IMG/VR virus record: IMGVR_UViG_3300047470_000212
Coordinates: 43,081 to 107,080 of that record
DNA: 64,000 nucleotides
Strand: one strand, 5' to 3'
From: a virus
Of this stretch, positions 171 to 63,429 are shown piece by piece. Under the pieces are notes generated by a model. The model made no database searches. It was not told the origin of the DNA and worked only from the letters and a program-made list of their open reading frames with translations. The position numbers and the translations under genes are program-made. Each line of letters opens with the position of its first letter. The stretch's first letter is position 1.

Positions 171-2149
171 TACTTAGCCTCACTCCAGCGGTCAACGATT
201 TTCACGTCCGACGACAGCGGCACCTTGAGCAGTTTCTGGATGTCCTCGCCGAGCATGGCTTCCCGAACAAGGTCGGCGGCCTCTTCGGCGCGGTCCTCCG
301 GAGCGAGGACGACGAGTTCGTCGTGCACCGAAAGGATCAGGCGGATTTCGTTCGGCAGGGAGTTGTTCAGCCGGATCATCGCCAACTTGATCAGGTCGGC
401 TGCGCTTCCCTGGATCAGGCTGTTGACTGCCTGGCGCTCGGCGCCCATTCGCAGGCCGTTGTTCTGCGAGAGCATGAGCGGCAGGCGACGCTTGCGGCCG
501 AGCAGCGTGCGGATGTACGGAGGTCGCCGCGACCGGCAGACCTGGATGACCCTTTCCTTGAAGGCGTAGATCTCCGGGAACAACTTCTGGTGCATCTCCA
601 TGAAGCGCTTGGCTTCCTTGACGGAGATCTTCGCCATGCTGGCGACCTTGTCCGGGCCAGCGCCGTAGACCACGGCAAAGTTGATGCCCTTTGCGACCTG
701 CCGGAAGTCGATACACGTACGGTCGCCGCTCTTTACCCGCGCCATGAATTCCTGCGGGTCCACGCCCATAAGCGCGGCAGCGGTGGCCGAGTGAGGGTCG
801 ACGCCGTTGTGGAATCCCTTGTAGAGATCGCCTCGACCGATGAAGTGCGCGAGCACCACGAGTTCGATCTGCCCGTAGTCCGCGACGACCAGTTTGTATC
901 CGGCCGGTGCGACGAACAGGCCACGGATTCGCTTACCGAGGTCCGTGTCCGGGCGCGGGATGTTCTGGAGGTTGGGTTCCCGGCAGGAGAATCGTCCGGT
1001 CACCGTTCCGTACTGGACGAAGTCGGCGTGGATCCTGCCGTCGAAGATGCGGCACGGCTTCTTCGGGTCGTCCTCGATACCGAGGTAGGACAGCGGGTAG
1101 TCGAGCAGCTTGCTGACTTCCGCGTACTCCAGCAGTTTCTTGACGACCGCGTTGTTCTCGTGCTTCTCCAGGCTGTCGGCGTCGGTGGAGTAGTCCTTCC
1201 ACTCCAGCTCCTGCCCTGCCTCGCGCTTCTTCTTTCCGCCGTCGGTCGGCTTGGTGGGGCGCAGGCCCTGGCCGCCGTCCTTCTTGGGGGCGTACAGGAC
1301 TGCGGCCTTCTGGGCCGGGGCGTTGAGGTTGAACTGCTGTCCGGCAGCGCGGTAGATGTCGGCCTCGATCTCGACCAGGCGGGCGCTCATGTCGCGCACC
1401 AGCTCCTGCATGGCCATCTGGTCGACAGGTGCTCCGGTGATGCCCATGTCGAGCAGCACGCCGAGGACGTCCTCTTCCAGGCGCCGGACGTTGATCAGGC
1501 CCTGGTCGTGGATGCGCTTCTGGAACTTTTTCCAGAGGAGCCAGGTGTACTTGGCGTCCATGTACGCGTAGTGCGCGACCTTGCCGAAGGGGTGGGCCTC
1601 GACGCACTTGCCGACGTTCTCGGTGTCGTAGTCGACCTTGTAGTACTTCTTGACGAGTTCCTTGAGGCCCTTCTGCTTGAGGTTTTCGTCGAGGAGCCAC
1701 TGGAGGACGATCGTGTCGCTGTACTGCGGGGGTGCGATCTCGCCCCAGTACTTCGCCGTGGAGATGAGGTCGAAGGTCGCGTTGTGCGCGATCTTGATCT
1801 TGTCCTCGGCGAAGAACAGCGGCTTGAGGATGGAGAACACCTCGCTCGGGAGCATCTGCTCCGGCGGGGCGTCGTAGACAGCCGGGATGGCGTCGAACTT
1901 CCCGGTGATCTTGTTCTTCTTCTTCGTGGCCTTGCTCAGCAGGACGTCGCCGTTGGGGTGGCCGAACGGGATGGCCACAGCCATGCCGTCGGTGGCAAGG
2001 CTCATCCAGTTGGCGACGTTCTGCGTCGGGACGTTCCGGTTGGGGCCGAAGGTCTCGATGTCGAAGGAGAAGGCCGGGCGCTCCATGAAGCGCTCGACCA
2101 CGGTATGAAGTCGGTCGGGGGTGAGGATGACGCTGTTCCTGATGGTCAC
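170..2149 (-). CDS. polA: DNA polymerase I (family A) with 3'-5' exonuclease domain
   Basis: This is the replicative phage DNA polymerase, 659 residues. The exonuclease motifs are visible: FSFDIETFG (Exo I), AHNATFDL (Exo II) and YAYMDAKYTW (Exo III). Polymerase motif A is VADYGQIEL, motif B is the RQVAKGINFAVVYG helix, and motif C is VHDELV. Motif A has Gly where Ser is usual (DYSQIEL). There is no 5'-3' exonuclease domain, as in most phage enzymes. The GTG start at 2149 is chosen because AGGAGG lies 8 bases upstream; the longer frame has no homology. A CTTCATAC motif lies near the N-terminus. The gene is downstream of an ssDNA-binding protein gene. Confidence 0.95.
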   Translation of the reverse strand: MTIRNSVILTPDRLHTVVERFMERPAFSFDIETFGPNRNVPTQNVANWMSLATDGMAVAIPFGHPNGDVLLSKATKKKNKITGKFDAIPAVYDAPPEQMLPSEVFSILKPLFFAEDKIKIAHNATFDLISTAKYWGEIAPPQYSDTIVLQWLLDENLKQKGLKELVKKYYKVDYDTENVGKCVEAHPFGKVAHYAYMDAKYTWLLWKKFQKRIHDQGLINVRRLEEDVLGVLLDMGITGAPVDQMAMQELVRDMSARLVEIEADIYRAAGQQFNLNAPAQKAAVLYAPKKDGGQGLRPTKPTDGGKKKREAGQELEWKDYSTDADSLEKHENNAVVKKLLEYAEVSKLLDYPLSYLGIEDDPKKPCRIFDGRIHADFVQYGTVTGRFSCREPNLQNIPRPDTDLGKRIRGLFVAPAGYKLVVADYGQIELVVLAHFIGRGDLYKGFHNGVDPHSATAAALMGVDPQEFMARVKSGDRTCIDFRQVAKGINFAVVYGAGPDKVASMAKISVKEAKRFMEMHQKLFPEIYAFKERVIQVCRSRRPPYIRTLLGRKRRLPLMLSQNNGLRMGAERQAVNSLIQGSAADLIKLAMIRLNNSLPNEIRLILSVHDELVVLAPEDRAEEAADLVREAMLGEDIQKLLKVPLSSDVKIVDRWSEAK

Positions 2150-2232
2150 GTGCGGTACCTCCTGGTGGTGTGGTGGGAAGCTGAGGGGGAGGCCCCGGCA
2201 GCTAGGTGCCAGAACCTCCCCCGGGAGGCTGA

Positions 2233-3042
2233 TCAGTCGTTCAGGATCTCGCGGGCGATCTGCTTGAGTTCGTTCCGCGTGTTGACGTGCAGGACGTCCT
2301 CGTCGTAGGCCTTGGAGTCGAACTCCTCCAGGTCCTCCTCGGTCAGCGGGTCGATGTCCCAGTCGTCGAGGAGGTCCCGCTCCTTGACCGGGGTGATGTA
2401 GTACGTGGTCTTGTTGTTCTTGCTCTGCTTGGAGACGCTGAAGTACAGGTCGTCCCGGTTGATCGGGGCGGTCTTCTTGTCCTTGGAGTAGTTCTTGAGG
2501 ATGTCGGCGACCATCGGACCGAACTGCCACACCTTGATGACCGGGTCCTCGGGGTCGGTGAAGTCGACGACGTTGAACGCAATCTGCTGGGACGGCTTGT
2601 CACCCGCGTCATCGCACAGCGGGCAGCGGCTCTCCAGGCACGTCCAGGACCGCTTGCCCTTGCGCTCGATCCAGTGCTGGAGGAAGACCAGGAACGGCTC
2701 CTCGTCCAGGATCTTCACCACCACGGCCTCGTTGGTGACCTTGAAGTTCTCCGGGAAGCCGGACGTGGCGGACTTGGTCTTCTCGTAGGAACCCCAGCCC
2801 TTGCCACCGACCTTCGGCGCAGGCTCGTTGTCCTCCTCGTCGTCCTCCTCGGAGGCGCGGCGCGAGCGGCGGGAGGCGGGGGCCTCCTCGGTATGAAGCG
2901 ACTCGCGGCGCGAGCGGCGAGAGCCCCGGGCCGGGCGCTCGGTCTCCTCCTCGGCGTAGCCGTGCTCCTCCTGCTCGTCGTCGGCGGGGGTGTAGGCCTC
3001 GGTCGCGGCAGCGGTACGGCGGCGGGTCAGAGTGCGGGGCAT
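2233..3042 (-). CDS. ssDNA-binding protein (gp32-like role)
   Basis: The protein has 269 residues. The first ~85 are low complexity, with Glu-rich stretches and RRSRR-type basic patches. A folded core follows with a Cys cluster (CLESRCPLCDD) that looks like a zinc site, and the C-terminus is acidic. This layout, directly upstream of the polymerase, fits the ssDNA-binding proteins of large actinophages. The basic/acidic N-terminal extension is unusual. The CTTCATAC motif falls inside the disordered segment (ESLHTEE). Function is inferred from the core and the neighbours, not from a definitive motif. Confidence 0.65.
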   Translation of the reverse strand: MPRTLTRRRTAAATEAYTPADDEQEEHGYAEEETERPARGSRRSRRESLHTEEAPASRRSRRASEEDDEEDNEPAPKVGGKGWGSYEKTKSATSGFPENFKVTNEAVVVKILDEEPFLVFLQHWIERKGKRSWTCLESRCPLCDDAGDKPSQQIAFNVVDFTDPEDPVIKVWQFGPMVADILKNYSKDKKTAPINRDDLYFSVSKQSKNNKTTYYITPVKERDLLDDWDIDPLTEEDLEEFDSKAYDEDVLHVNTRNELKQIAREILND

Positions 3043-3281: not shown

Positions 3282-3742
3282 TGCTCGGCCAGCCTCTTGA
3301 AGAGGTCGATGACGCGGGCGGTGAACTGGGTGCCCTTGATGGGCTTCTGGTGCGAGACCAGAACGCCCTCCTCGTGCGCGATGCGGACGATGCCCTCGAC
3401 CTGCTCGCGGGTGTAGAGGCGGCGACGGCCGCGCGGGTCGTCGTCCTTGCCCGGGGACTGGAAGGTGGACTTGGGAATGACTCCCTCCCTCTCCCACTTG
3501 CGGATGGTCACCGGCTGACGGCTCAGTGCCTTGGCGAGTTGACCGAGGGTGAAGAACTCAGTCTCCACACCGCCCACCGTGTACTTCCGGGGCTTGTGGT
3601 CCCAGTCGGCCGCCGACGTGGCGGCCTTGGTATGAAGCCCGTTGCGGTTGTGGTGGCGGACGATCGGCTTGGTGGACCCGGGGTAGAAGGCTTCCCCGAT
3701 CTCCGCGAAGTCCTGCTCGATGCTGGCGAGTGCAGTGCTCAT
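3278..3742 (-). CDS. MerR-like helix-turn-helix DNA-binding protein
   Basis: The protein has 154 residues. Residues ~63-115 form a MerR-type winged helix: FFTLGQLAKALSRQPVTIRKWEREGVIPK, then the wing and the RRRLYTREQVEGI helix. No effector domain is present, so it resembles excisionase-like or phage regulatory MerR proteins. It opens the gene group leading to ssDNA-binding protein and polymerase and could autoregulate it. A CTTCATAC motif lies in the N-terminal part (NGLHTK). Confidence 0.8.
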   Translation of the reverse strand: MSTALASIEQDFAEIGEAFYPGSTKPIVRHHNRNGLHTKAATSAADWDHKPRKYTVGGVETEFFTLGQLAKALSRQPVTIRKWEREGVIPKSTFQSPGKDDDPRGRRRLYTREQVEGIVRIAHEEGVLVSHQKPIKGTQFTARVIDLFKRLAEQ

Positions 3743-4234: not shown

Positions 4235-4281
4235 AGAGCGGGGCTCTCTTTCTTCCGGGGTAGTTGGTGGATCGAGTAGTG

Positions 4282-4317: not shown

Positions 4318-4671
4318 TTACGGCTTCTTCGGATCCATTCGAACCGTGCGCCGGGCCGCGTAGGCGCGGGCGTCGTCGTCCAACTGATCCATGCGGACTT
4401 CAGTCTCGGCCACGTCCTGGTAGACGGTGACCACGCGGTGGTCGGCCGGGTCGACGATGGCGACGATGTCCCCTCGTACGTGGCGCCACTGTCCGGGGAC
4501 GCGGGCCGAGGGGTAGGTATGAAGCGGCTTGTCGGCCGCGAGGAGAACATCCTCGCTGGTCCAGCCCTTGGCGGCGGCCTGCTTCTGCGCGTGGTAGGTC
4601 AGCCGGTACTCCGGCGACTCGGTGGCGGGAGCGGTCCAGGTGATGCCCAGAGCTTCGGCGATGGTGGCCAT
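4318..4671 (-). CDS. DUF4258-like small protein
   Basis: The protein has 117 residues. The core (YRLTYHAQKQAAAKGWTSEDV ... DIVAIVDPADHRVVTVY) matches the pattern of DUF4258/BrnT-like folds: a His-Ala helix, a [G/A]-W-[T/S]-x-E-D-V turn and a terminal beta hairpin. Members are often toxin-like or RNase-like, but no catalytic site is evident. The ATG at 4671 is preceded by GAGGAGACCGAG. It carries the CTTCATAC motif (KPLHTYP). Confidence 0.6.
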   Translation of the reverse strand: MATIAEALGITWTAPATESPEYRLTYHAQKQAAAKGWTSEDVLLAADKPLHTYPSARVPGQWRHVRGDIVAIVDPADHRVVTVYQDVAETEVRMDQLDDDARAYAARRTVRMDPKKP

Positions 4672-6905: not shown

Positions 6906-6951
6906 TGGCGGCCTCCGCCCAGGTATGAAGCCGGTTGTTCATGGGGTGCAT
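6892..6951 (-). CDS. 19-residue micro-ORF carrying the CTTCATAC motif
   Basis: The frame encodes MHPMNNRLHTWAEAANASA. Its ATG overlaps the primase stop (TGATG), and its end overlaps the ATG of the HNH gene, so it exactly bridges two genes. Nearly all of it is the LHT motif and flanks. It resembles the 15- and 28-codon micro-ORFs at 11687 and 26661. It may be a real micropeptide, a translational coupler, or a carrier for the nucleotide motif. Confidence 0.45.
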   Translation of the reverse strand: MHPMNNRLHTWAEAANASA

Positions 6952-7919
6952 CAGAACCTCGCTATGACGGATGAGTAGGCGTTGCGGACGGCGTTCTTGA
7001 GGGCGTCGGCCCCCATGTCGCCGGGGTCCTTGCAGGGGGTGCCGGAGTAGTCCAGGAACTTCAGGGACAGGCCTCGGCCGGTCCACTCCTCGCGCAGCCG
7101 CTTGCACGTCTCGGCTCCTGCGGTGTCGTTGTCGAGCGCGATGATCACGGAGTCGAAGTGGTCCCGGATCAGGGACATCTGGGCGTCGGAGACTCCGGCG
7201 CCGAAGGAGGCGAGACCGGCCTTGAAACCGCAGGCCCGGAGCCGGACGACGTCCAGAGGAGACTCAACCAGGATGGCCGTGTCGTCCTCGTAGGTATGAA
7301 GTCCGAAGAGGGTCTTCGACTTGGCCATGCCCGGCGGCCGGTTGCGGAAATAGCGCTCGTTCTTCTCCTGCCAGCCCCACAGCATTCCCGTGTCGGGGTC
7401 GCGGACCGGGATGATCCACATCTCCCGCTCGGTGTCCCACAGCACGCCGCAGGCTTCCGCGTCCTCCGGCATGAAGAACCGCTCGGCGCAGGGGGTCAGC
7501 GGCGGGGTGACGTACAGGGCCAGGCTGGCCTCGTTGATCTGCTTGGTCGTGTCGACCGTCTTGGGGTCAGCCTTCTTCGCCAGGAACTTCTTGACCCGCT
7601 CGATCCCGCCCCGCTGCCGGACCCAGGCGACCGCGTCCCCGTACGGGAGGTCGAGCATGTCCTTTACGAGGACCACGAAAGGGCCCTGGTAGCGGCAGGA
7701 GAAGCAGTTGAAATACCCAGCGTCGTAGTTTATGGAAAAGGATGGGTGCTTGTCTTTCTTTCCGGTCCGCGCCTCATGCATCGGGCACGGCATGTGAATC
7801 TCGTCGCCGCTGACCTTGTAATCCAGGCCAATCTCATCCAGGCAGGCGGTGACGTTGCCGGGAACCGGAGTTCCTACTGCGTCCCAGCCGCGCGCCTTAG
7901 AACGAACCCTGGTAGCCAT
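6951..7919 (-). CDS. dnaG: DNA primase (zinc-binding and Toprim domains)
   Basis: The protein has 322 residues. The N-terminal zinc ribbon is CPMH...CFSC (residues ~45-80). The Toprim domain is at ~210-290, with LVESPLDVVRL and ALDNDTAGAETCKRL supplying the Glu and Asp-x-Asp metal ligands. It synthesises RNA primers for the adjacent DnaB-like helicase. Length is typical of short phage DnaG-like primases lacking a C-terminal helicase-binding domain. A CTTCATAC motif lies at FGLHTYED. Confidence 0.88.
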   Translation of the reverse strand: MATRVRSKARGWDAVGTPVPGNVTACLDEIGLDYKVSGDEIHMPCPMHEARTGKKDKHPSFSINYDAGYFNCFSCRYQGPFVVLVKDMLDLPYGDAVAWVRQRGGIERVKKFLAKKADPKTVDTTKQINEASLALYVTPPLTPCAERFFMPEDAEACGVLWDTEREMWIIPVRDPDTGMLWGWQEKNERYFRNRPPGMAKSKTLFGLHTYEDDTAILVESPLDVVRLRACGFKAGLASFGAGVSDAQMSLIRDHFDSVIIALDNDTAGAETCKRLREEWTGRGLSLKFLDYSGTPCKDPGDMGADALKNAVRNAYSSVIARF

Positions 7920-9162
7920 CAGTGTTCTCCTCCTCCATGGCGAAAGGATCCTCGTTCAGTTCCTCGAACTTTCCCGTCTCCCAATCCCACTGGCAGTAGG
8001 TCTCCAGAGGCGGGCAGTTACGGGCCAGGACGACCTTGATCTTGTTGATGTTCGAGTCATCCGTGGACTCGACACCGAGAATGACGTCGGAGTCCTGGGC
8101 GAAGGAGGACGAATATCCGATGGAGTCGGAGGTAATGCCCTTCTTCTTGTTCATCTTCCATTCCAGGACCTGCGTGGAAATGACGATCGGGAGTTGCAGG
8201 TTCTTCGCCATGCGCTTGAATCCTCGGGTGAGGTTGGTAAGCGCCTGGCTGGATCCCTGAGCCTCGCCGAGTTCGTCCTGCATCATGTAGATGCCGTCCA
8301 CGAATACGATCGTCGGCCGAATGGCATCGATCTTCGACTGCACACCGGTAAGCGTGGTCGCATTCATGGAGTCCGAGGAAAGGAAGAACGAGGGCATAGC
8401 CTCAAGTTCCCGAAGGGCCCTTTCGAGTTTGTCCCACTCGGTCTTCTTGAGCGTTCCGTTCCGCAGCCGGGCATGGGAAATCCCCGCGCGGATTGCGTCG
8501 AAGCGTTCCTCCTGCTCCTCGTTGCTCATCTCGAAGCCGATGAACAGCGGGCGCTCACCGTGCAGGTGGGCAGCCATGGCGGCCAGCAGAAGCAGCGTCG
8601 ACTTACCAGCCTTCGGAGGGCCGACGAAGGTGACCAACTGCTCCTTCTGGAGGCCCTGGGTGGCCCTGTCGATCGTGTTGAAGCCGGTGGGGATACCCCG
8701 GAGCCCGTCGGGCAGGTCCTTGAGCGTGAGGTACCGCGCAAGGCGTTCCTGGCCCGTCTCCGTCAGGTCGGTGTCGCGGGCGTTGGGTACCGCCGAGGCG
8801 ATGTTGGCCAGCGTGCGGGCCAACGCCTCCATCGCGGCGGTGGCGTTGCCCTCTTCGTGTGCGTCGACCGAGTCGGCCAGGCCCTGCTCCAGCAGGGCCA
8901 AAGTATGAAGTTCTCGCAGCCGGTCGGTCAGCACTTCCATGCTGTCCTCGACCTTGACGAACCGGTACGTGGGGAAGTCGGTCTTGATCGTGGTGAGGCT
9001 CGGGACCTCGCCGTAGTTCCCCTTGTGCCGCAGGATCGCCTTGAAGACGGACTTGTTGTCCGGGTCTCCGAAGAAGTCGGGGGTGATGCCCGCGTCCGCG
9101 ACGACAGCCAGGTCCTTGTCCTGGATGACGCGGGACACGAGCAAGCGCTCGAAGTCCGCCAC
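7897..9162 (-). CDS. dnaB: DnaB-like replicative helicase
   Basis: The protein has 421 residues. A RecA-type core carries VGPPKAGKSTLLLL (Walker A) and TIVFVDGIYMMQ (Walker B). It also has GFEMSNEEQEER, the helicase H1a Glu region, and a VISTQVLEWK sensor-type strand. The N-terminal ~120 residues are helical, like the DnaB N-domain. The GTG start at 9162 overlaps the upstream TAG. The 3' end overlaps the primase start by 23 bases. It carries one CTTCATAC (RELHTLAL). Confidence 0.88.
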   Translation of the reverse strand: MADFERLLVSRVIQDKDLAVVADAGITPDFFGDPDNKSVFKAILRHKGNYGEVPSLTTIKTDFPTYRFVKVEDSMEVLTDRLRELHTLALLEQGLADSVDAHEEGNATAAMEALARTLANIASAVPNARDTDLTETGQERLARYLTLKDLPDGLRGIPTGFNTIDRATQGLQKEQLVTFVGPPKAGKSTLLLLAAMAAHLHGERPLFIGFEMSNEEQEERFDAIRAGISHARLRNGTLKKTEWDKLERALRELEAMPSFFLSSDSMNATTLTGVQSKIDAIRPTIVFVDGIYMMQDELGEAQGSSQALTNLTRGFKRMAKNLQLPIVISTQVLEWKMNKKKGITSDSIGYSSSFAQDSDVILGVESTDDSNINKIKVVLARNCPPLETYCQWDWETGKFEELNEDPFAMEEENTDGYQGSF

Positions 9163-9605: not shown

Positions 9606-9850
9606 CAGGCTCGCTCCGCTTCGGCGCGGAGCCAGATATGAAGTCGTCCGTGCCGGAGTTCTGTGATCACACGGTGCTCGCGCACGCGGAATCCGAGGGC
9701 GGCAGCCTTGTAGACCGCGAGGAAGAGCAGCCGCTTGGCGGTCGCACGCTGCTCGGGGAACCGTCCGGTGATCGTCGCCGGGATCTCGTCCTTGTAGAGA
9801 ACCGACAAGACCTCGTCCTCGAAGGGGAGGACCATCTGCTCATGCGGCAC
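9605..9850 (-). CDS. Small protein of the replication operon
   Basis: An 81-residue protein. The GTG start at 9850 is preceded by GGAGGAGATCGCC and overlaps the end of the DnaC-like gene. The N-terminus MPHEQMVLPFEDEVLSVLY contains a QxxLxF-type segment (QMVLPF) reminiscent of sliding-clamp or SSB-tail binding peptides; that is inference. The C-terminus RLHIWLRAEAERA carries CTTCATAT. Confidence 0.6.
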   Translation of the reverse strand: MPHEQMVLPFEDEVLSVLYKDEIPATITGRFPEQRATAKRLLFLAVYKAAALGFRVREHRVITELRHGRLHIWLRAEAERA

Positions 9851-10499
9851 GGCGATCTCCTCCGACGACGGTGATGTGGGTGAAGGCGCCCTGGATGAAG
9901 GAGCCCATCGAGGGGTTGTATGTGTCCCCCCACTTGCTCGGCGGGACGTTGGAGGTGACGAGGGTCGGCCGGGCCTCGCGGTGTCGAAGGCGCAGCAGGT
10001 CGTCCAGCAGGCCTTCGGCGTAGCCGGACTTGGTCTTGTGCTCCTTGCCGACGTCGTCGAGGAGGAGGACGGGCGCCTTCTCGGCCGCGACGATCTTGTC
10101 CGTGATCTCCCACCAGCGGGCAACGGCCTCGGGCTCGTGCCGGTCCTGGAGACCCATCCGCTCGATGGACAACTTCACGTAGTCCGAGTAGGCCAGCCAC
10201 GCCACGGGCAGGCGGCGGCCGAAGTAGACCTCCAGCAGCGTGGACGTGGCGAGCGTGGTCTTGCCTGTGCCGGGCGGCCCTACGACCAGCAGCCCCTTGC
10301 CGATGGTGCTCCAGTCGGCCGGGTACTCGTTCAGGGGGCGCTTGTCCGTGACGTAGTGGTCCCGGAGGTTGTCCACGAACTCCTGGCAGACGGCCTTGTG
10401 CGGCGAGTCCGCCAACGTATGAAGACGCAGGTGCTTGTAGTGCGCCGGGATGCCGTACTCCTTGAGCCGCAAGGCGTGGACCCGGGGGTCAGTCGCCAT
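9840..10499 (-). CDS. DnaC-like AAA+ helicase loader
   Basis: The protein has 219 residues. The ATPase core shows VVGPPGTGKTTLAT (Walker A), VLLLDDVGKEHK (Walker B) and LVTSNVPPS (sensor 1). The length and N-terminal helical domain match DnaC/IstB-type loaders that place DnaB on DNA. The ATG at 10499 follows AGGAGGTATCCAC. Its promoter (10538-10566) carries a GGAAGCGATAAC box next to the -35. CTTCATAC encodes RLHTLADS near the N-terminus. Confidence 0.88.
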   Translation of the reverse strand: MATDPRVHALRLKEYGIPAHYKHLRLHTLADSPHKAVCQEFVDNLRDHYVTDKRPLNEYPADWSTIGKGLLVVGPPGTGKTTLATSTLLEVYFGRRLPVAWLAYSDYVKLSIERMGLQDRHEPEAVARWWEITDKIVAAEKAPVLLLDDVGKEHKTKSGYAEGLLDDLLRLRHREARPTLVTSNVPPSKWGDTYNPSMGSFIQGAFTHITVVGGDRRAA

Positions 10500-11690: not shown

Positions 11691-11734
11691 TCGGCGACTC
11701 CGAGGAAGCGATAAGTATGAAGCGATAGCGTCAT
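11687..11734 (-). CDS. 15-residue micro-ORF carrying the CTTCATAC motif
   Basis: The frame encodes MTLSLHTYRFLGVAE. Its stop overlaps the initiator GTG (GTGA), a classic coupling arrangement. The same DNA contains two direct copies of TATCGCTTC flanking the octamer. A leader peptide regulating the initiator gene is possible. Confidence 0.45.
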   Translation of the reverse strand: MTLSLHTYRFLGVAE

Positions 11735-11850: not shown

Positions 11851-13080
11851 TCACTCCGAGTCGAGTTCGAGGCCCTTCTCCTCGATCTCCGCCCGGGTCA
11901 ACTGCACGACGGTCTGTCCGGCCGGGATGCGGCCACGGCCGCGACGGGTGTAGTTGCCCTCGTCGTCGACCAGGTAGGCGAACGTCTTGTTCTCGTCACG
12001 CGGGCGACCACGACGCCGACGGGGAGAGGACTGCTCCTCCTGGTCACCCTCCGGCTCCTGGTCACCCTCCGGCTCCTCGGCCGCCTCCGGCGCCTTCTGC
12101 TTCTGCTCGCCGGTCTCCGGCAGCGTATGAAGCGCCTTGCGCAGCAGTTCGGTCAGCGGTCGCTCGCGCACGTCGGCCTGGTTGATGATCGCGTTGCGCT
12201 CGTCCTCCAGACGGAAGGAGTTGTAGGCACCCTCCAAAGCGGCGCGTATCAGGAGCAGGTCGATCTCGGCGTCCGGGACCGGCTTGTCGGTCTCCTTCTG
12301 CTGCGCCTTGTGCTGCGCGCGGGCGATCGTCTCCTGCAAGGACTCCTTCTCCTCCTCGACAGGCGCCTCTTCCTCGACCGGCTCGGCGGCCTTGCGACCA
12401 CGACGGCGGGGCTCCGGCTTCGGCTCCTCCTCCGGCTTGTCCTCGGTCAGCGGCTCCTCTTCCGGCTCGGCCGTCTCCGGCTCGGCGCGACGGCCACGGC
12501 GACCGCGACGGCGGGGCTCCTCCGGCTCGGGCTCCGGCTCGGGCTCCGGCTCGGGCTCCGGCTCCGCCTCGGGCTCGGCGTGGGTCTCGGCAGCGAAGGA
12601 GATGTCGTCGAGTCCGGCCGTCAGGTCCTTGGCCGTGATCCCAGCGGCCTCGGCCGCGTCCAGGAGGAGTTCGGCCTCCTCGCTGCCCTCGGAACCCCAC
12701 AGCAGGATCACGTGGGCGTCGCCCTGACTGTCGGCGTTCTTGAGGAGTTCGACGATCCCGGCGGTGACGTTGGCAGTCTTCACGACCTCCTCGGCGTCCT
12801 TGAGGATCTTGTCGACGGCCCGGCTCTTCTCGCCGTCGGTGACCGCGACGAACGGGATGTCGGCCCACTCGGACCACTCCAGGACGGTCTCCAGTCCGTC
12901 GGACAGGTGCTTCTTGGTGATCGGGAGGATGAGCGTGATCTCGCGCTCGGAGGGCTCGGGGTAGCCGTCCTTGTCTTCCTCGCCGAGGCCCACGAAGTCG
13001 TTCAGGAGGGCCTTGACGTTGTCCAGGTCGGTGGCGGCGTCGCCAGCGAAGGCGAGTGCGATGGGCTGAGTGCTGCTCAA
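11851..13080 (-). CDS. AT-hook, Pro-Glu-rich DNA-binding protein
   Basis: The protein has 409 residues. The N-terminal ~165 residues look folded (alpha/beta, ...ITLILPITKKHLSDGLE...HVILLWGSEGS). A Pro-Glu repeat tract follows, then basic AT-hook-like motifs (RRRGRRGRR, RRRGRKA, RRRRGRPRD) and a C-terminal domain with GRGRIPAG, reminiscent of the Lsr2 RGR-I-P signature. It may bind AT-rich DNA and act as a phage nucleoid-type protein. The TTG start at 13080 is chosen for its GGGAGCA site. It carries CTTCATAC (KALHTLPE). Confidence 0.6.
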   Translation of the reverse strand: MSSTQPIALAFAGDAATDLDNVKALLNDFVGLGEEDKDGYPEPSEREITLILPITKKHLSDGLETVLEWSEWADIPFVAVTDGEKSRAVDKILKDAEEVVKTANVTAGIVELLKNADSQGDAHVILLWGSEGSEEAELLLDAAEAAGITAKDLTAGLDDISFAAETHAEPEAEPEPEPEPEPEPEPEEPRRRGRRGRRAEPETAEPEEEPLTEDKPEEEPKPEPRRRGRKAAEPVEEEAPVEEEKESLQETIARAQHKAQQKETDKPVPDAEIDLLLIRAALEGAYNSFRLEDERNAIINQADVRERPLTELLRKALHTLPETGEQKQKAPEAAEEPEGDQEPEGDQEEQSSPRRRRGRPRDENKTFAYLVDDEGNYTRRGRGRIPAGQTVVQLTRAEIEEKGLELDSE

Positions 13081-13489: not shown

Positions 13490-14020
13490 TCAGACCGACC
13501 TCGGGCCGAGGGGAGACTGCGGGAGCGCCTGGGTGGTGATGGTCTCCTGGGCGACCAGGGCTGGCTTGACCGCACGCTGGAGCGCAGCGTGCAGGGCGAC
13601 GGCGATCTGCTCGATGGCCTCGGGACTCAGGGTGGCGCCGCTGACCTGCGCCGGGGGCTCGACTGCCTCCGTCTCCTCGACGTACTTGGCCAAGGTGGCG
13701 GGCGATATATGAAGCCGGTTCTCGGTCTCGGTGATCAGGGCGTTCTGGAGCCAGCCGAACCACGCGTACTTCTTGAGCAGCGAGTGGTAGAAGGCGGTGC
13801 CGGTCACCCAGGCGAGGAAGGACGCGACGACGGCCGGGGCCCAGTAGAAGTGCTGGGGGTGGGCCTGGTAGACGGCCCAGAAGCCCGTGGCGACCGCGAG
13901 GACGGCATGCGCGGCACCCTTGACCGTGGCGTTGGTCGACGGCCGGGTGAACAGCGCGACGATGGCTGGCAGGGCCAGGCCGACGACGAGGGAAGCCGCG
14001 TCGGCGTAGTTGGTGAGCAT
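13490..14020 (-). CDS. Holin-like multi-spanning membrane protein
   Basis: A 176-residue protein with hydrophobic segments at ~8-27, ~33-52 and ~60-80, and a soluble C-terminal half. The size, the topology and the position after the last tail fibre gene suggest a holin. CTTCATAT encodes NRLHISPA just after the membrane domain. Confidence 0.55.
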   Translation of the reverse strand: MLTNYADAASLVVGLALPAIVALFTRPSTNATVKGAAHAVLAVATGFWAVYQAHPQHFYWAPAVVASFLAWVTGTAFYHSLLKKYAWFGWLQNALITETENRLHISPATLAKYVEETEAVEPPAQVSGATLSPEAIEQIAVALHAALQRAVKPALVAQETITTQALPQSPLGPRSV

Positions 14021-45107: not shown

Positions 45108-45266
45108 ATGGAAACCAACGCGCTTCATACCTCGGGGCTCACCGAGCCCCAGAGCAACATGACCGTCAGCCTGACGAACAACCGCATGGAGGACAGCCGC
45201 TGGAACCGACTCCTCACCATCCTCTTCACCCCGCAGGACGAGGACGCCCAGGCAGCCACCGCCTAG
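45108..45266 (+). CDS. 52-residue protein with the only rightward CTTCATAC motif
   Basis: It starts METNALHTSGLTEPQSNMTV; the rest is charged and ends in Asp/Glu/Ala. It is preceded by TTGAGAAGCGATAGTAGGG. It carries the octamer on the plus strand, still on its own coding strand and in the same frame as all others, which shows the motif follows the gene and not genome polarity. Function unknown. Confidence 0.6.
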   Translation: METNALHTSGLTEPQSNMTVSLTNNRMEDSRWNRLLTILFTPQDEDAQAATA

Positions 45267-45388: not shown

Positions 45389-47473
45389 ATGGCCAGCATA
45401 GCGGCCGAGCGGGCCCGTGTACGCGCGCAGAAGGTCAACGGCACCCGCCCCGGAACCCCCGGAACCTTCCAGTCCAGCACCGCCCTCGCACGCATCGTCA
45501 AGCGTGTCGGCGCCTACCTCCGTGTGTCCACCAAGGACCAGATCGTCGGCTACGGCCTCGACGTCCAGCTCAAGGGCATCCAGGACAACATCGACCTCAA
45601 GAACGCGACGGAAGAGCGCAACGGCACCAACATCGTCTGGGAACTCTCCGACGTCTACGAAGACGCGGGCGAGTCCGGCGCCAAGCAGGACCGGCCCGAG
45701 ATGATGCGCCTGGAGCGCGACGTCCTCGCCAAGAAGATCGACGTCGTCGCCGTCCACAAGTTCGACCGCATCGGCCGCACCGGCCGCGCCTTCTGGCACT
45801 GGGTCTGGGCCCTCGAAGATGCCGGAACCTCGATCATCTCCGTCACCCAGGAGATCGACACCACCACCACCCACGGCGTCACCGCGCTCCAGCAGCTCGC
45901 ATCCTTCTCCGAGATGGAATGGCGCACCATCCTGGAGCGCACCCAGAACGGCCTCAACATGAAGGCCGCCTCCGGAGGCTGGACCGGTGGCCCCCCGCCC
46001 TTCGGCTACTACATCGAGAACCAGGGCAAGCGCGACTCCAAGCTGGGCCTCGATACCGAAGAGTGCCGCACCCTCGAACTCGCCGCCCAGTTCATCGTCG
46101 AAGGCGGCTACACCGTCGACCGCGCCGCCCACATGCTCAACCTCATCGGCCGACTCACCCGCAAGGGCGTGGAGTGGACCGGATCCAACCTCCGGCACAA
46201 ATTCTTCAACACCGCCCTGGACGGATTCGTCGTCTACCGAAACACCGACGAAGTCGTCAACAAGCGCCGTAAGCGCGCCACCCGGATGAACCCTGACGGC
46301 ACCCCCAAGCACGGCCCCATGGTGATCATCGACACCCCGATGGTCTTCGAACTCGACCGGCTCATCTCCATCCGCCACGCCCTCAAGCGAAACGGCTGGA
46401 ACCTCACCGGCCCGTACAAGTACCACCCCCTCAGCACCCGCGTGATCGGTGAATGCGGCGCCCACTACACCGGAGTCTGGGTAAAGGCCGAGAACCGCCG
46501 CACCTACCGCTGCACCGGAAACAAGTGCGGCGACTCCGTGATCGACGCCGTGGCGCTCGAAGAAGTCGTCTGGGACAGCCTGAAGAACTTCCTCGGCGAC
46601 AAGGAGAAGCTGCGCGAGATCGCCAAGGACTGGGTGACCACCGCACCGGATCACCGCAAGATGTACGAGGCTCGTATTGAAGAACTCACGCGGGAAATCG
46701 CAGGTCTGCGTGAGCTGACCACCACCACGCTGGTCAACCTCGCGAAGGCGGGCGTCGATGCGCTGGCCATCAATTCAGCAGTGGCGAAGCTGAACGAGGA
46801 GATCAACAACAAGCAGGCGATGCTGGACGACGCCGTGTCGATGCTGGCGGAGGCGGAAGAGTCCGCTACTCGCGCCGAGGATTTCCAGCGCCTGGTCGAG
46901 ATCGCCACCTTCAACCTGGAGTTCATCACCGACCGGCAGAAGGCCGAAGTGATGGACCTGCTGGAGATTCAGGTGACGCTCATCGGGCCGGTTCCGCTGG
47001 ACGGCCGCTTCGGGCCGGACTCCGACATCGAGCAGTGGTTCGGAAAGCGCAGTGTTCAGCCGGTCGAGATGACCGATGCGCTGTGGGAGGAGATCCGTCC
47101 TCGGATCAGCTTCCGGGCCTCGAAGAAGAGCCACGATCTGCGGGGGCTGGTGGAGGGTCTGCTCTACAAGGCCCGCACGGGTTGCCCGTGGTCTGAGATG
47201 CCGGAGCACTTCCCGCCGAAGGAGGCTCTGAGGGCCCGCTGGAGGGCCTGGAAGGACGGGGCGTGGGAGAACATCGTCGAGCCTCTTCTGGAGCCCGCTC
47301 CGCCGCGTAAGCCGCCGCTGCCGCCCATGAAGGTGACGGGGAACATCGACCCCCGTCTGGTCGAGTTCACCAACGGTCAGGCGACGAGCCAGGTTCCGCA
47401 CTCTGCTGGACGAACTTCCAGGGGATTGTTCACGTACGTCATCAACCTGGAAAAATGGCGATTGGCCGCCTGA
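45389..47473 (+). CDS. Large serine recombinase with C-terminal IS5-type (DUF4096-like) domain
   Basis: The protein has 694 residues. The resolvase domain (~35-185) begins RVGAYLRVSTKDQ with the nucleophile Ser. A recombinase domain follows (~205-320). The zinc ribbon is GECGAHYTG...RCTGNKCGD, then a coiled coil (~425-500). Residues ~555-640 (MTDALWEEIRPRIS ... LVEGLLYKARTGCPWSEMPEHF ... WKDGAWENIVEPLL) match the N-terminal HTH region of IS5-family transposases. That extension is unusual in serine integrases. It opposes the tyrosine integrase in the same locus. Confidence 0.9.
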   Translation: MASIAAERARVRAQKVNGTRPGTPGTFQSSTALARIVKRVGAYLRVSTKDQIVGYGLDVQLKGIQDNIDLKNATEERNGTNIVWELSDVYEDAGESGAKQDRPEMMRLERDVLAKKIDVVAVHKFDRIGRTGRAFWHWVWALEDAGTSIISVTQEIDTTTTHGVTALQQLASFSEMEWRTILERTQNGLNMKAASGGWTGGPPPFGYYIENQGKRDSKLGLDTEECRTLELAAQFIVEGGYTVDRAAHMLNLIGRLTRKGVEWTGSNLRHKFFNTALDGFVVYRNTDEVVNKRRKRATRMNPDGTPKHGPMVIIDTPMVFELDRLISIRHALKRNGWNLTGPYKYHPLSTRVIGECGAHYTGVWVKAENRRTYRCTGNKCGDSVIDAVALEEVVWDSLKNFLGDKEKLREIAKDWVTTAPDHRKMYEARIEELTREIAGLRELTTTTLVNLAKAGVDALAINSAVAKLNEEINNKQAMLDDAVSMLAEAEESATRAEDFQRLVEIATFNLEFITDRQKAEVMDLLEIQVTLIGPVPLDGRFGPDSDIEQWFGKRSVQPVEMTDALWEEIRPRISFRASKKSHDLRGLVEGLLYKARTGCPWSEMPEHFPPKEALRARWRAWKDGAWENIVEPLLEPAPPRKPPLPPMKVTGNIDPRLVEFTNGQATSQVPHSAGRTSRGLFTYVINLEKWRLAA

Positions 47474-47881: not shown

Positions 47882-48164
47882 CAGGCACCTCGTCGAATCT
47901 GTGGGCGTTGTCGCGGATCGAGTCCGTGGTGAGCGCGTCCTCTGTTCCCCGGACGGCTTCCAGCAGGGCTTCTCTTTCACTGCGCCCGGTATGCCGCCAG
48001 CGGCCGAACACGAGGCCCTTTCGCCATATCCGGATAATCCAGGAGTGGGACCGGCGGTACGGCGGGTCCAGTTCATCGGTAGGCGCGGTATGAAGCAACG
48101 GTGTCTTTGGGGCCAGGTCGATGAACTGAACGAAGAAAGGCCCCACGTCATGGGTTCTAGGCAT
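47865..48164 (-). CDS. Hypothetical protein with CTTCATAC motif
   Basis: A 99-residue protein. The middle (YRRSHSWIIRIWRKGLVFGRW) is aromatic and basic. CTTCATAC encodes PLLHTAPT. The ribosome site before ATG 48164 is weak. The divergent HTH gene starts within a few bases on the other strand, so the two may share control. Confidence 0.55.
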   Translation of the reverse strand: MPRTHDVGPFFVQFIDLAPKTPLLHTAPTDELDPPYRRSHSWIIRIWRKGLVFGRWRHTGRSEREALLEAVRGTEDALTTDSIRDNAHRFDEVPDELVV

Positions 48165-50330: not shown

Positions 50331-50573
50331 TTAGATATGAAGACCGGCCTTCTTAAGCTGATTCTTGGCCTTGATCCAGCCAGGGGTCGCTCCGGTTAGC
50401 CCGCTGATGCAGACCGTGTTCCCCTTTGGGTCGACCCACCGGATGTGGTTTCCTCCGGTGACTGTCACCGTCCATTTGTCCTTTCGCGCCTTCTTTACGA
50501 CCTTCTCGATCTCCTTGTCGGCTCCGAGTCGGCCAGAGCTGCTGCTGGCCACTGGTGCACCCTTGCGGGCCAT
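50331..50573 (-). CDS. HicA-like (dsRBD-fold) toxin-type protein
   Basis: An 80-residue protein. KKARKDKWTVTVTGGNHIRWVDPKGNTVCISG...WIKAKNQLKKAGL follows the HicA mRNA-interferase layout: GGNHIRW replaces the usual G-S-H catalytic strand, with the His kept. The predicted partner HicB is not seen next to it. ATG 50573 follows GGAGGCGGACCC. The last sense codons are the motif CTT CAT ATC, ending ...GLHI. Confidence 0.6.
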   Translation of the reverse strand: MARKGAPVASSSSGRLGADKEIEKVVKKARKDKWTVTVTGGNHIRWVDPKGNTVCISGLTGATPGWIKAKNQLKKAGLHI

Positions 50574-54756: not shown

Positions 54757-55263
54757 CTACAGCCACTCTCCGGTCAGGGCGCCGTGGACGTCGGCTTCCC
54801 GGTAGGTATCCGGCTTGAGGATCTTGCCGTCCTCGCGGCGGATGACCTGGCCGTCGACCACCTTGCTCATGTTCGAGCGGTGGACCTCTCTGAAGACGGC
54901 CTCCAGGGGGATCTCCAGGAGGTCGGCGGTGCCGTAGACGACGTACAGGACGTCGGCCAGTTCCTTGGCCAGGGCCGCGTACCGGTACGGCGCCTCAACG
55001 GTGTGCAGGCCGGTGATGGTGGCGGCCGGGTTGGCCTCGAAGTAGTCGTCCATGATCTGCGTCTTGCGGTAGTTCAGAAGGGCCTCCAGGGCCTCCTGGA
55101 CCTCCTCGGCGATGAGGGTGGACCGCAGGGAAATCAGGTCGTCCCGGGCGGCCTCGTCACGCTCGATGAAGGGCTTCTCCCCCACCGCCTGGTGCCACTG
55201 TCTGACGGCTTCCATGGGGCGGTGGGGCTGGGTATGAAGCAGGGTGCGCGGGGTGTTCGTCAC
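54757..55263 (-). CDS. MazG-like nucleotide pyrophosphohydrolase
   Basis: A 168-residue protein. LIAEEVQEALEAL...ALAKELADVLYVVYGTADLLEIPLEAVFREVHRSNMSKV (in outline) shows the ExxE...ExxD metal-binding helices of all-alpha NTP pyrophosphatases, with the HRSNMSK end typical of phage MazG-like/PRA-PH-type enzymes. It may alter nucleotide or (p)ppGpp pools. GTG 55263 follows GGAGAACCT. CTTCATAC is at codons 9-11 (LLHTQP). Confidence 0.85.
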   Translation of the reverse strand: MTNTPRTLLHTQPHRPMEAVRQWHQAVGEKPFIERDEAARDDLISLRSTLIAEEVQEALEALLNYRKTQIMDDYFEANPAATITGLHTVEAPYRYAALAKELADVLYVVYGTADLLEIPLEAVFREVHRSNMSKVVDGQVIRREDGKILKPDTYREADVHGALTGEWL

Positions 55264-55274: not shown

Positions 55275-55751
55275 TCACGCGGGGAGGATGAGGTCCAGGT
55301 CCACCGGCCGGACGTTCTGCGGCAGGCGGTTGTCGTCGAAGAGGTGGACTCCGGCGCGCTCGTAGGCCAGGTCGACCAACTGCGAGCAGATGAGCCGGTC
55401 CTGCCGCTGGATGCGACGGTCCACCCACCCGATGGAGATGTGGAACCGCTTGAGGGCCAGCGCCAGGATGTCCAGCCAGCCGTACGGAGTACCTACCAGG
55501 GAAACCGCGTTCGCCCAGATCTGCTCCCGGGTGGCTTCCGGGAGCGAGGTATGAAGGTTGAAGCGGGCGTTGGGGTACTGCCTGATGTCGCCGAAGGCCG
55601 CGCCCGAGGGGTTGGCCTCGACGATGAGCCCGCCGGGGCCGACGATGAAGGCGTGGTTCACGCGACCGCCGGTGAACTTGCGTATGACCCAGCCCGCGAA
55701 GCCGCCGGTCGCGGTGACGCCGAAGGAGCCGATCGGAGGAGTGTCAGGCAT
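55275..55751 (-). CDS. Permuted papain-like (YiiX/NlpC-type) cysteine hydrolase
   Basis: A 158-residue protein. VNHAFIVGPGGLIVEA holds the conserved His, and YGWLDILAL...RLICSQLVDLAYERAG holds the Cys; this His-before-Cys order marks the permuted NlpC/P60-like group. No signal peptide is seen. Targets may be peptidoglycan or acylated substrates. CTTCATAC encodes NLHTSLPE. Confidence 0.75.
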   Translation of the reverse strand: MPDTPPIGSFGVTATGGFAGWVIRKFTGGRVNHAFIVGPGGLIVEANPSGAAFGDIRQYPNARFNLHTSLPEATREQIWANAVSLVGTPYGWLDILALALKRFHISIGWVDRRIQRQDRLICSQLVDLAYERAGVHLFDDNRLPQNVRPVDLDLILPA

Positions 55752-56194: not shown

Positions 56195-56501
56195 GCGCAG
56201 CCCCTCCGGGCAAGATATGAAGCGCGCCGGGCTGGCCGAGGTCCATGAACGGCTCGGCGATCTGGACGGCGACCTGCGTGAAGGCTTCGCCGATCTGCTC
56301 CTGCAAGCCGCCCAGTCCCTGCAACTGGTCGGCCAACTCCAGCAGGGTGCCGACGATGTCCTTGATCGCGACGTAGTACTCGCCGCTGTCGTCGTCCCGC
56401 ATGAAGCGGTAGGTGGCCTCGTGCTCGGACGTGGTCTCGGTGAGGATGCTCAAGGGGTTCTCCAGGGTGGTGGTGCCATCAGAGCCAGATGCGGTGCTCA
56501 C
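56181..56501 (-). CDS. Hypothetical protein, 106 residues
   Basis: An N-terminal beta segment (EATYRFMRDDDSGEYYVAI), then helices (LLELADQLQGLGGLQEQIGEAFTQVAVQIAEPF). CTTCATAT encodes GALHILPG near the C-terminus. It overlaps the phosphoesterase end. Confidence 0.55.
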   Translation of the reverse strand: MSTASGSDGTTTLENPLSILTETTSEHEATYRFMRDDDSGEYYVAIKDIVGTLLELADQLQGLGGLQEQIGEAFTQVAVQIAEPFMDLGQPGALHILPGGAARADG

Positions 56502-57720
56502 TGGTAACGCGTCCCTTCTCGGGGTGGATGAAGTGCAGGCGCTGGGAGGGGTCTCCCGTGGCCGCGACGAACTCGTGGGCGTAGATGTTGTCCGACTCCG
56601 GCGAGCCGGTCATGAAGACCGAGCCGCCGTTGGCCATCTGCAACTGCATGGCCTGGTGGTAGTGGCCGATGTACAGGTCGCGGAAGGAAGGCAGGACGCC
56701 GGAGGCCCACTGGTTGGCCTTGCGGAGGATGCCGTAGGCCGGGATGTTGCCGCCGAAACTCTTGATCTCGTCGCCGTGGATCGCCATCGCGGAGTAGTTG
56801 CCGATGGTGAAATGCTGGTACCAGTCCCCCGACGTCTGGAACTTCGTCAGCCGGGGCTCGTGGGCCAGGCGCTGCTTCACGATGTTGTAGACCATGCGGT
56901 CCACGTTGTCCGAGGCCTTGATGCCGTCGCCCTTGCGGCCGAGCCTGCCATGGTTGCCGTACTCGGCGACAACCTCGACCGTCTCGTAGGTATGAAGCGC
57001 CTGCGTGATCGTCCAGATCATCAGGTCGGCGACGTCAAACATCTGCTCGTACAACGTGCCATCCAACTCCCAGACCTGGCCGGGGAAGATGGAGACGCCT
57101 TCGACCATGTCTCCGGTGAACAGCAGCACGCCGTGCTTGACCGGGTGGTCGGCCCGCTGGATGTCGGTGATCTCGGCGGCCTTCTCGACGTACTTCTCGA
57201 TCCGCCTGTGCATGATCTCGCGGTCGTACGTCTCGGTCCGCTTGCCGCCCTGCCAGTCGGTGAGGTGCCACAGGGCTACCTCGGTCGGCTTCATGCGGGT
57301 GTCAGCGATGGGCGGAGTGACGTCGCGCTGGCCGACGTACTGGGCGGCATCCGTGGCCGCGCGGTAGACGGCTTCGATGTACTCGTCGCCGCGCGCCTTG
57401 GCCTTCTTGTAGGCCGCGAACAGACGGCGGTTGTCAGCCTCCAGGGAAGCGATGCGCTCCTCCTGGCCGACCTCCTCCGTGTCCTCGGCCACTGCCTCCG
57501 GATCGCCCTGCTCGGGCTCGGTATGAAGCGTCTTGCGGCCGGGCTCGACCAGGATGGCCCGCTTGTACTCGTTGGCCTTGCGCCAGCGCCGGACGGCGGT
57601 CTCGGACGTCTCGACGCCGTTGAAGACGAGGTCGTCGGCAGCGGCCTGGTGGCCGACGTTCGGGTCCATGAGGATCTGCTGGACCCACTCGACGTCGATC
57701 ATGTCCTGAAGCGTGCTCAA
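56479..57720 (-). CDS. Metallophosphoesterase with N-terminal HTH
   Basis: The protein has 413 residues. The N-terminal ~60 residues look like a DNA-binding HTH (HQAAADDLVFNGVETSETAVRRW). The calcineurin-like core shows LTDWQGG, FTGDMVEG, AEYGNHGR, AIHGDE and GHYHQ, supplying the two-metal ligands. Such proteins occur in actinophages near MazG or nuclease genes and may process DNA. It is unique in the window in having two CTTCATAC motifs (TLHTEP, ALHTYE). The TTG start follows AGAGGAACACCC. Confidence 0.85.
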   Translation of the reverse strand: MSTLQDMIDVEWVQQILMDPNVGHQAAADDLVFNGVETSETAVRRWRKANEYKRAILVEPGRKTLHTEPEQGDPEAVAEDTEEVGQEERIASLEADNRRLFAAYKKAKARGDEYIEAVYRAATDAAQYVGQRDVTPPIADTRMKPTEVALWHLTDWQGGKRTETYDREIMHRRIEKYVEKAAEITDIQRADHPVKHGVLLFTGDMVEGVSIFPGQVWELDGTLYEQMFDVADLMIWTITQALHTYETVEVVAEYGNHGRLGRKGDGIKASDNVDRMVYNIVKQRLAHEPRLTKFQTSGDWYQHFTIGNYSAMAIHGDEIKSFGGNIPAYGILRKANQWASGVLPSFRDLYIGHYHQAMQLQMANGGSVFMTGSPESDNIYAHEFVAATGDPSQRLHFIHPEKGRVTSEHRIWL

Positions 57721-61017: not shown

Positions 61018-61138
61018 CGATAACTCCTTAACAACGCGACCCCCGTAGTGCGCCGCACAGCTTTCATTTGACGTCAACCATACTGCTAGTGCAGTACGGC
61101 ATCTGTCAAGCGATTCCAGTGTGGCGCTCGACAAGCCG

Positions 61139-62490: not shown

Positions 62491-62520
62491 ACCCCGCCAC
62501 GGGATGCCGTAACGGGGTCG
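62491..62520 (-). terminator. Terminator after the polynucleotide kinase gene
   Basis: GACCCCG...CGGGGTC with partial inner pairing, ~40 bases beyond the stop. There is no clear T-tract. Confidence 0.55.
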
Positions 62521-62556
62521 TATGTCAATTACTTTGCCTATGAGGCAAGTATGAGG

Positions 62557-63429
62557 TTAGAAGTCGCCCGGGGCAACCTGAAGGCAGGTCAGGCCGAGGT
62601 TGTTCCGCCACATATCGACGACCTGGTTGCGGTCGTCGAGCACGAAGCGGACGTTGTAGAACGGCTCGACCTTCCCTCGGTAGATCTCTTCCTTCACGAT
62701 GGCGTCCCTGCGGTTGTCACCGGCCGCCCGCATGTACAGGAACGCCTCCCGGGTCCACTTCCCCACGTGACGCTCCAGCCAGGCGCGCGTCTGCTCGTAG
62801 CAGGAGCCATCCCGGCCGGACAGGAACACGATCTCCACGCCCGAGTCGTCGAGGGTGTTTACCAGGTTCACGACATCCCTGATCGGCTCGTCCTCGCCGA
62901 CCTTGTCCCAGTCGAAGGGACCGCGCGAGACCATCTTGGCCAGCGTGCCGTCGATGTCGACCAGGACCGCGTCCTTAAGGGACGGGTCGTACTCAGGAGG
63001 CGCCACACGAGGCCGCAGGTACGTGTCGTACATCCGCTGGATGACCTTCTCTCCCACGCTCCGCTCGCGCAGCAGGTCGCGCTTGATGCAGGTCCGCAGC
63101 GGCACGTCAGTGAAGTCCTTGACGACGAACTGCACCCCGTAGTGCTCCGCGATGTCCCGCAGGTTCTTCTCGTGGACCGGGTTGAAGTTGGTGTCGTCCA
63201 CGATCACGCTGATGCCACGCACCAGCCAGGTATGAAGCAGCGCGTCCCGAGTCCGTACGACCTGCCGCTCGTTCTTTCCGTGCCAGCGCTCCGCGTGCAG
63301 CATCGCCCGCAGGTCGTCCTTGTTGATGCGGATCAGGGTGCCGGGGGCGGCCTTGAGGACCTGCTCCTTGGCCCAGGTGCTCTTGCCCGAGCCGGGCAGG
63401 CCCTTGGTCATGGTCAGGGTGGTGGTCAC
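62557..63429 (-). CDS. Polynucleotide kinase-phosphatase
   Basis: The protein has 290 residues. The kinase domain shows KGLPGSGKSTWAKE (P-loop), RINKDDLRAML and VDDTNFNP. The C-terminal HAD phosphatase shows LVDIDGTLAKM, FLSGRDG and FVLDDRNQVVDMWR. This is the T4 Pnkp arrangement, which repairs broken RNA or DNA ends. No RNA ligase is seen in the window. GTG 63429 has a strong AAGGAG site; an in-frame ATG at 63474, coupled to the previous gene, would add 15 residues with a Cys pair. CTTCATAC encodes LLHTWLVR. Confidence 0.9.
   Translation of the reverse strand: MTTTLTMTKGLPGSGKSTWAKEQVLKAAPGTLIRINKDDLRAMLHAERWHGKNERQVVRTRDALLHTWLVRGISVIVDDTNFNPVHEKNLRDIAEHYGVQFVVKDFTDVPLRTCIKRDLLRERSVGEKVIQRMYDTYLRPRVAPPEYDPSLKDAVLVDIDGTLAKMVSRGPFDWDKVGEDEPIRDVVNLVNTLDDSGVEIVFLSGRDGSCYEQTRAWLERHVGKWTREAFLYMRAAGDNRRDAIVKEEIYRGKVEPFYNVRFVLDDRNQVVDMWRNNLGLTCLQVAPGDF

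Follow-up and report, generated by a model that had tools for sequence, protein, structure and literature searches.

The DNA analysed here (the window) is a 64,000-nucleotide stretch, bases 43,081–107,080 of the 107,080-bp IMG/VR virus record IMGVR_UViG_3300047470_000212, with a GC content of 65%. It encodes, among other proteins, a DNA polymerase, a Toprim primase, a DnaB-like helicase, tail proteins, and two integrases, and the octamer CTTCATAY is dispersed through its genes. All 27 copies listed in a preliminary description of the window were found at the positions given (26 minus-strand copies and a single plus-strand one, at 45123; Table 1). The whole record contains 46 copies, 45 of them on the minus strand, and about a third of the genes of this phage carry the word.

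On the coding strand, CTTCATAC is the top-ranking octamer, with 39 copies against approximately 0.45 expected from the dinucleotide content. The preliminary description held that no copy is antisense to a gene and that all are read as CTT CAT AYN. Indeed, the 39 copies of CTTCATAY within called genes all fall in sense frame 0, with none in sense frames 1 and 2 or in the three antisense frames, whereas a codon-aware null, the protein-preserving synonymous shuffle, yields 0.35, 0.01, 0.20, 0.33, 0, and 0.11 copies over the same six frames and never more than two in frame 0. Genes were called with a home-made program that misses tiny genes and those with low GC content at third codon positions, and the reading frame at doubtful sites was determined manually. 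One-mismatch neighbours of the octamer show no frame-0 enrichment; hence, the word behaves as all or none. Leu-His-Thr/Ile written with other synonymous codons is rare in this phage. The original observation is confirmed as real and is stronger than first reported.

A comparison set of 12 long genomes was compiled from this phage and 11 IMG/VR relatives, and these form two groups. C-type genomes carry CTTCATAY, while A-type genomes carry CTTAATAY at equal density and nearly lack CTTCATAY. Orthologous codons switch between CTT CAT ACC and CTT AAT ACC inside otherwise ordinary alignments, and at least three changes of type are seen on the DnaB tree. The 12 genomes contain 437 words of either type in 90 orthologous groups, including 35 groups with words in both types, 33 in C-type only, 21 in A-type only, and one stray. 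Just two words belong to the wrong type; each is a CTTCATAY copy in an A-type genome (off-frame in G007 and in frame in G011). Own-type words lie essentially all in sense frame 0, tiny open reading frames (ORFs) included; for the two calls made off-frame or antisense (G004:95051 and G003:85918, oriented coordinates), the word falls in frame 0 of a competing ORF.

Where an orthologue lacks a site, the corresponding codons are present and differ by point substitutions (CTGCACACC, CAGCACACC, CTGAACACC): at the place of C-only sites, A-type orthologues often have CTGCACACC, and at the place of A-only sites, C-type orthologues often have CTGAACACC. Sites thus arise and disappear through point mutations, many of them silent, with His/Asn changes where the protein permits. 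The earlier suggestion of a mobile coding micro-element is not supported by these alignments, which contain substitutions only and no insertions at the sites.

The frame was further assessed with the protein held constant, by counting in each frame every position whose peptide could synonymously encode the word. In the six C-type genomes, the exact word occupies 201 of 230 encodable in-frame LH[T/I/M] positions (87%), as opposed to 0 of 57 and 1 of 52 off-frame sense positions (Fisher p = 6e-60 vs. in-frame). The lone off-frame call is probably a miscalled gene, as the word is in frame in a competing ORF, which encodes LLHTKGLQ there. Off-frame copies are mostly no more than two silent changes away, yet they are not seen. 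The A word is found at 170 of 196 in-frame encodable positions of A-type genomes, and the C word at 1 of 22 encodable positions in the same genomes. The word stands in frame even in ORFs of approximately 8–15 codons and right before stop codons. Another explanation, that the frame was inherited from an A-type ancestor, is weakened by the C-type sites private to single genomes, which are also in frame 0, and by the repeated changes of type. Frame lock at constant protein, exact codons, and the genome-wide letter switch together favour a translation-coupled mRNA signal; with the orientation of the sites, which follows transcription, they support the mRNA- or translation-level signal put forward in the preliminary description.

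Over both types, the recognised core is at least a 9-mer of three codons, CTT-MAT-AYC, the ninth base being C in 89% of cases. Weaker preferences that deviate from the codon-phase background are observed in the flanks, i.e., G at position −1, T or G at 9, A at 10, and G at 11 and 12, the first base of the word being 0. Sites are biased to ORF ends, with 90 in the first and 67 in the last 20 codons against 36 expected at each end. No even spacing was seen when it was looked for; the sites are clustered instead.

Table 1. Copies of CTTCATAY and related genes (window coordinates).
Feature	Coordinates	Strand	Gene and peptide context
Site 1	2103..2110	-	DNA polymerase, DRLHTVVE
Site 2	2891..2898	-	269-aa protein, ESLHTEEA
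Site 3	3630..3637	-	MerR-type helix-turn-helix (HTH) protein, NGLHTKAA
Site 4	4517..4524	-	117-aa protein, KPLHTYPS
Site 5	6923..6930	-	small ORF, MNNRLHTWAEA
Site 6	7294..7301	-	Toprim primase, FGLHTYED
Site 7	8903..8910	-	DnaB-like helicase, RELHTLAL; QHT in A-type
Site 8	9636..9643	-	81-aa protein, GRLHIWLR
Site 9	10417..10424	-	219-aa protein, LRLHTLAD
Site 10	11715..11722	-	tiny ORF, MTLSLHTYRFLGVAE followed by stop
Site 11	12125..12132	-	409-aa protein, KALHTLPE
Site 12	13707..13714	-	176-aa protein, NRLHISPA
Site 13	23989..23996	-	1452-aa tail protein, DGLHTGRT
Site 14	26722..26729	-	small ORF, MAFTDRLHTWGP
Site 15	26904..26911	-	minor tail protein, GGLHTKGA
Site 16	30737..30744	-	287-aa protein, NDLHTEGY
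Site 17	34856..34863	-	271-aa protein, EVLHISGG
Site 18	38179..38186	-	286-aa protein, MSLHTQGI
Site 19	45123..45130	+	sole plus-strand copy; small ORF upstream of serine integrase, METNALHTSG
Site 20	48088..48095	-	PLLHTAPTDE; frame 0 of a gene with miscalled start
Site 21	50335..50342	-	last codons of HicA-like gene, KKAGLHI followed by stop
Site 22	55232..55239	-	168-aa protein, TLLHTQPH
Site 23	55549..55556	-	158-aa protein, FNLHTSLP
Site 24	56215..56222	-	106-aa protein, GALHILPG
Site 25	56990..56997	-	407-aa protein, QALHTYET
Site 26	57521..57528	-	407-aa protein of site 25, KTLHTEPE
Site 27	63230..63237	-	305-aa protein, LLHTWLVR
HicA-like protein, 73 aa	50331..50552	-	conserved TGGNH[ILV][KR]W histidine motif; candidate reader
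Leader ORF of serine-integrase operon, 52 aa	45108..45266	+	carries the one site of that strand
Large serine recombinase (integrase)	45389..47473	+	divergently transcribed

Sites are concentrated in replication and accessory genes and occur in some virion genes. The integrase ORFs have none, but the small ORF immediately preceding the serine integrase holds one copy close to its start. In genomes covering the integrase end, there is usually one such opposite-strand site, likewise in the first part of a small ORF; in those that contain the integrase, this ORF lies just upstream of it, and the ORFs differ among genomes. The claim that polarity tracks transcription is thereby upheld, as the lone opposite-strand copy of each genome lies in the oppositely transcribed integrase region, and we conclude that polarity is set by transcription and not by replication. 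A site-free block of approximately 15–18 kb recurs in the relatives (here at record bases ~5,160–23,330, outside the window) and its genes, small and accessory, lie on the main coding strand. Nor do the XRE-DUF397 genes contain any site.

Both a tyrosine integrase (43922–44998, minus strand) and the serine integrase are present, the latter with a DUF4096 match near its C-terminus. An XRE-DUF5753 and DUF397 gene pair (53701–54698, plus) lies on the opposite strand; such pairs are typical of actinobacteria, suggesting an actinobacterial host. The protein at 60652–61188 (minus) carries a C-terminal DNA-binding domain of the Lsr2 type. A c-di-AMP riboswitch (RF00379, 71.9 bits; 59915–60049, minus) is located directly upstream of an NlpC/P60 peptidase gene (59423–59929, minus).

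One site, at a conserved place, has a distinct RNA context. In the 5′ leader of the DUF2637/HTH gene (record bases ~4086–4250, minus strand), the octamer lies inside the stem of the first hairpin, which pairs CATACC with GGTATG in C-type and AATACC with GGTATT in A-type genomes, so that the change from C-G to A-U follows the type. Further downstream, compensatory changes occur in a G+C-rich hairpin, and another hairpin precedes the start codon, directly after an in-frame TAG or TAA. This site, at least, is subject to constraint at the RNA level.

A switch of letter throughout the genome requires that the word be read in trans by a factor that has two alleles. Among 108 protein families of the 12 genomes, the largest fraction of alignment columns fixed between types (45%, the next being 31%) belongs to a HicA-like protein of 73–97 aa, whose A-type allele has a 14-residue insertion. 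Its neighbours are not split alike, and the gene directly downstream has only 5% of columns fixed between types. The allele agrees with the word type in every contig found. In all contigs seen, the word forms the end of the C-type gene itself; A-type genes end in CTTAATACC or CTTAATCTC. The HicA_toxin profile matches eight of 13 members of the family at E ≤ 1 (best 3.9e-5), and the histidine of TGGNH (His36) is invariant. The predicted model (predicted local distance difference test, pLDDT, 75) has the dsRBD-like order alpha-beta-beta-beta-alpha; the Foldseek search with it placed 1whz, a HicA protein of Thermus, on top and also listed the HicAB complexes 6g26 and 5yrz among its top hits. HicA mRNA interferases (Pfam PF07927) share with this protein the size, the predicted fold, the conserved histidine in a G-G-N-H motif, and a C-terminal helix ending in GL. 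In contrast to them, it scores below the cut-off, lacks a detectable HicB, with no match in the genes beside it (50814–51293 and 49920–50225), and is linked to an 8–9-nt word enriched in the phage's own genes. Searches for relatives produced only unconvincing matches in named phages (E of 3 or more) and none in 84,980 bacterial and archaeal genomes.

A search for a phage protein that binds the octamer had been proposed earlier; type divergence provided a candidate. The HicA-like protein is most likely the reader, and we treat it as the leading candidate. HTH regulators were rejected as type-specific readers, as no change in the helix-turn-helix is fixed by type in the MerR-type protein (3278–3742), the XRE-DUF5753 protein (53701–54504), or the DUF2637/HTH protein. 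Phage tRNAs do not explain the word type either, since tRNA-Asn is found in all tRNA-bearing genomes; tRNA-His is found only in three C-type genomes. A guide RNA was rejected as well: in sense transcripts, the reverse complement is confined to the position facing the integrase-leader copy, and the comparison of the types brings out no reciprocal complement k-mer. A separate word, CGTAATG, is enriched on the coding strand of A-type genomes (39 copies vs. one in C-type).

A blind scan for frame-locked words was applied to more distant phages. In G023, the HicA-like protein is 49% identical and the genes contain no CTTMATAY words; the scan instead retrieved CTTCTAG, with 26 copies in frame 0 against 0.7 expected. 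The word resolves to NWT-CTA-GVC, found 43 times in frame 0 (1.5 expected), once in frame 1, and nowhere else. No frame-locked word above background was observed in five distant phages with no detected HicA-like homologue (G014, G015, G016, G030, and G032), the gene caller labelling only 54–58% of G030 and G032 as coding. This one positive and five negatives for a word following the HicA-like gene are supportive, not conclusive.

CAGTTG, considered as a second frame-locked word, is explained by avoidance of CAGCTG, apparently the cause of Gln-Leu being written CAG TTG. In ~1 Mb of 65% GC phage DNA (this record and the 11 relatives), there is no copy of CAGCTG or CTCGAG and a single one of GAGCTC; most of the 12 genomes have almost no CTGCAG, CCGCGG, or GCCGGC, each of which is abundant in one or two genomes. 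This scarcity of palindromes looks like restriction avoidance.

We propose that CTTMATAY(C) is an in-frame mRNA signal with a type-specific phage reader, most likely the solo HicA-like protein, and rate this reading as having about an even chance of being correct. The word would be recognised only when in frame within a translated ORF, by a phage-encoded reader whose allele specifies C or A at word position 4. Acting with translating ribosomes, which codon-phase dependence implies, the HicA-like protein may bind or cut phage messages at CTT-MAT-AYC. A HicA relative reading a three-codon word on ribosomes would explain the polarity, the frame, the exact codons, the type switch, and the lack of antisense words. 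The approximately 40 sites, spread over replication and accessory genes and part of the virion genes, together with the copy close to the beginning of the integrase operon, would serve to silence lytic and integrase messages, e.g., in a prophage or upon superinfection by the same type, and the site in the last codons of the HicA-like gene could provide feedback. The lack of sites in the XRE-DUF397 genes and in the recurring site-free block also fits such a role. The main alternative benefit would be timed message decay during lysis. This reading is consistent with the strong bias of E. coli HicA, seen in RNA-seq of toxins, to cut before the first base of a codon (PMC8546651).

Several points weigh against this reading. 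Perfect separation by type (nearest allele) is found in 27 of 66 testable families, so that segregation alone cannot single out the HicA-like gene, and the case for it rests on depth of divergence, the biology of the family, and one distant phage. The Pfam HicA_toxin match of the window protein scores 18.1 bits, below the curated cut-off of 27, and the Foldseek hits have weak E-values, 0.07 at best. Specificity for eight or nine bases is unusual for the HicA family, whose members elsewhere cleave weakly and broadly, unlike the long word here. HicA was first described, and long held, to be translation-independent (PMC8546651). Finally, the off-frame space of the A word is limited by TAA stops or TTA-ATA codons, and stop or very rare codons limit part of that of CTTCTAG in G023; it is in C-type genomes only that the frame lock is clear of this objection.

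A possible but less probable alternative retains the in-frame signal and assigns it to another reader, a small phage protein (e.g., that at 56000–56194 or 9605–9850) or a ribosome-associated factor, with pausing, protection, or timed decay instead of cleavage. The two proteins have 31% of columns fixed and segregate perfectly and at 0.95, respectively; 26 perfectly segregating families exist besides the HicA-like one, and the hairpin stem of the DUF2637/HTH leader is also compatible with such a reader. However, neither protein has a recognisable domain, none of these candidates has the HicA-like depth of split or known codon-phase biology, and the word in G023 tracks the presence of the HicA-like protein.

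DNA stoperators, i.e., a repressor that binds the word on DNA and blocks transcription in one direction, with the frame lock as a by-product of coding constraint, are an unlikely explanation, although the parallels are substantial. As in cluster A mycobacteriophages with their L5 and Bxb1 repressors, ~25–40 short asymmetric sites are dispersed over the genome of a temperate phage and oriented with transcription, and related phages have variant words, the matching regulator being known there and proposed here (PMC6550527). The preliminary contrast with these stoperators was fair for frame and intragenic placement and missed the parallels in dispersion, polarity, and allelic word types. An off-frame A word would need TAA or TTA-ATA, and an A-type ancestor could have fixed the frame in this way. 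On the other hand, stoperators are DNA sites for a transcription-stopping repressor with no frame lock described, whereas here the words lie in ORFs in frame 0 only, though off-frame options exist in C-type genomes: of 109 encodable near off-frame positions, the single one called is the doubtful case above, and sites gained by single C-type lineages keep the frame. The three HTH proteins do not vary with word type, binders of another fold being still conceivable, and a frame-blind binder gives no reason for in-frame words in tiny ORFs.

A mobile coding micro-element, a recombination joint, or a Chi-like or replication polarity signal would suit an exact, strongly strand-biased octamer; we consider these very improbable given gain and loss by substitution and an integrase-operon copy that follows transcription and not one genome strand, and none of them requires a reading frame. 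A Leu-His/Asn-Thr motif read in the protein, attractive in that the tripeptide is always the same, is refuted for practical purposes by codons that are too exact: 87% of the tripeptides use exactly CTT and CAT/AAT, though these are minor codons, and synonymous codings are rare in a genome's own type and the rule in the other.

Phage-encoded control of messages through a short word has a precedent in the T4 RegB endoribonuclease, which cuts the phage's own messages to control timing. RegB differs in its target, GGAG within ribosome-binding sites instead of codons in frame, and is not known to have word types. Dispersed operator-like repeats also occur in another large temperate phage, P1, as C1 operators; these and the SPbeta elements read by MrpR are DNA operators for transcription repressors, and we know of no codon-frame dependence in either. 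The proposed reader would be, to our knowledge, the first regulator whose sequence-specific recognition is gated by codon phase genome-wide, and we know of no other system with a long exact word counted only in the translated frame. The SPbeta repeats resemble the present sites in their dispersion over a large temperate phage (PMC10516654). Frame-locked phage words were not described in the literature searched, the coverage of which was limited.

Mechanistically, the proposed system resembles stoperators carried over from transcription to the level of translation. A more far-reaching form of the proposal, which we advance tentatively, is that of translation-level stoperators, where a solo HicA-like RNase would read the 8–9-nt word in the frame of the ribosome and silence dozens of the phage's own messages, and the letter of the word (C, A, or the CTA-GVC form) would define immunity groups. 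The frame-lock scan is simple and applicable to all phage genomes. If the proposal is true, these phages would provide a direct test of whether HicA enzymes act on translating ribosomes, and their words would constitute a natural type-specific marking of messages for ribosome-coupled control and a new form of phage immunity.

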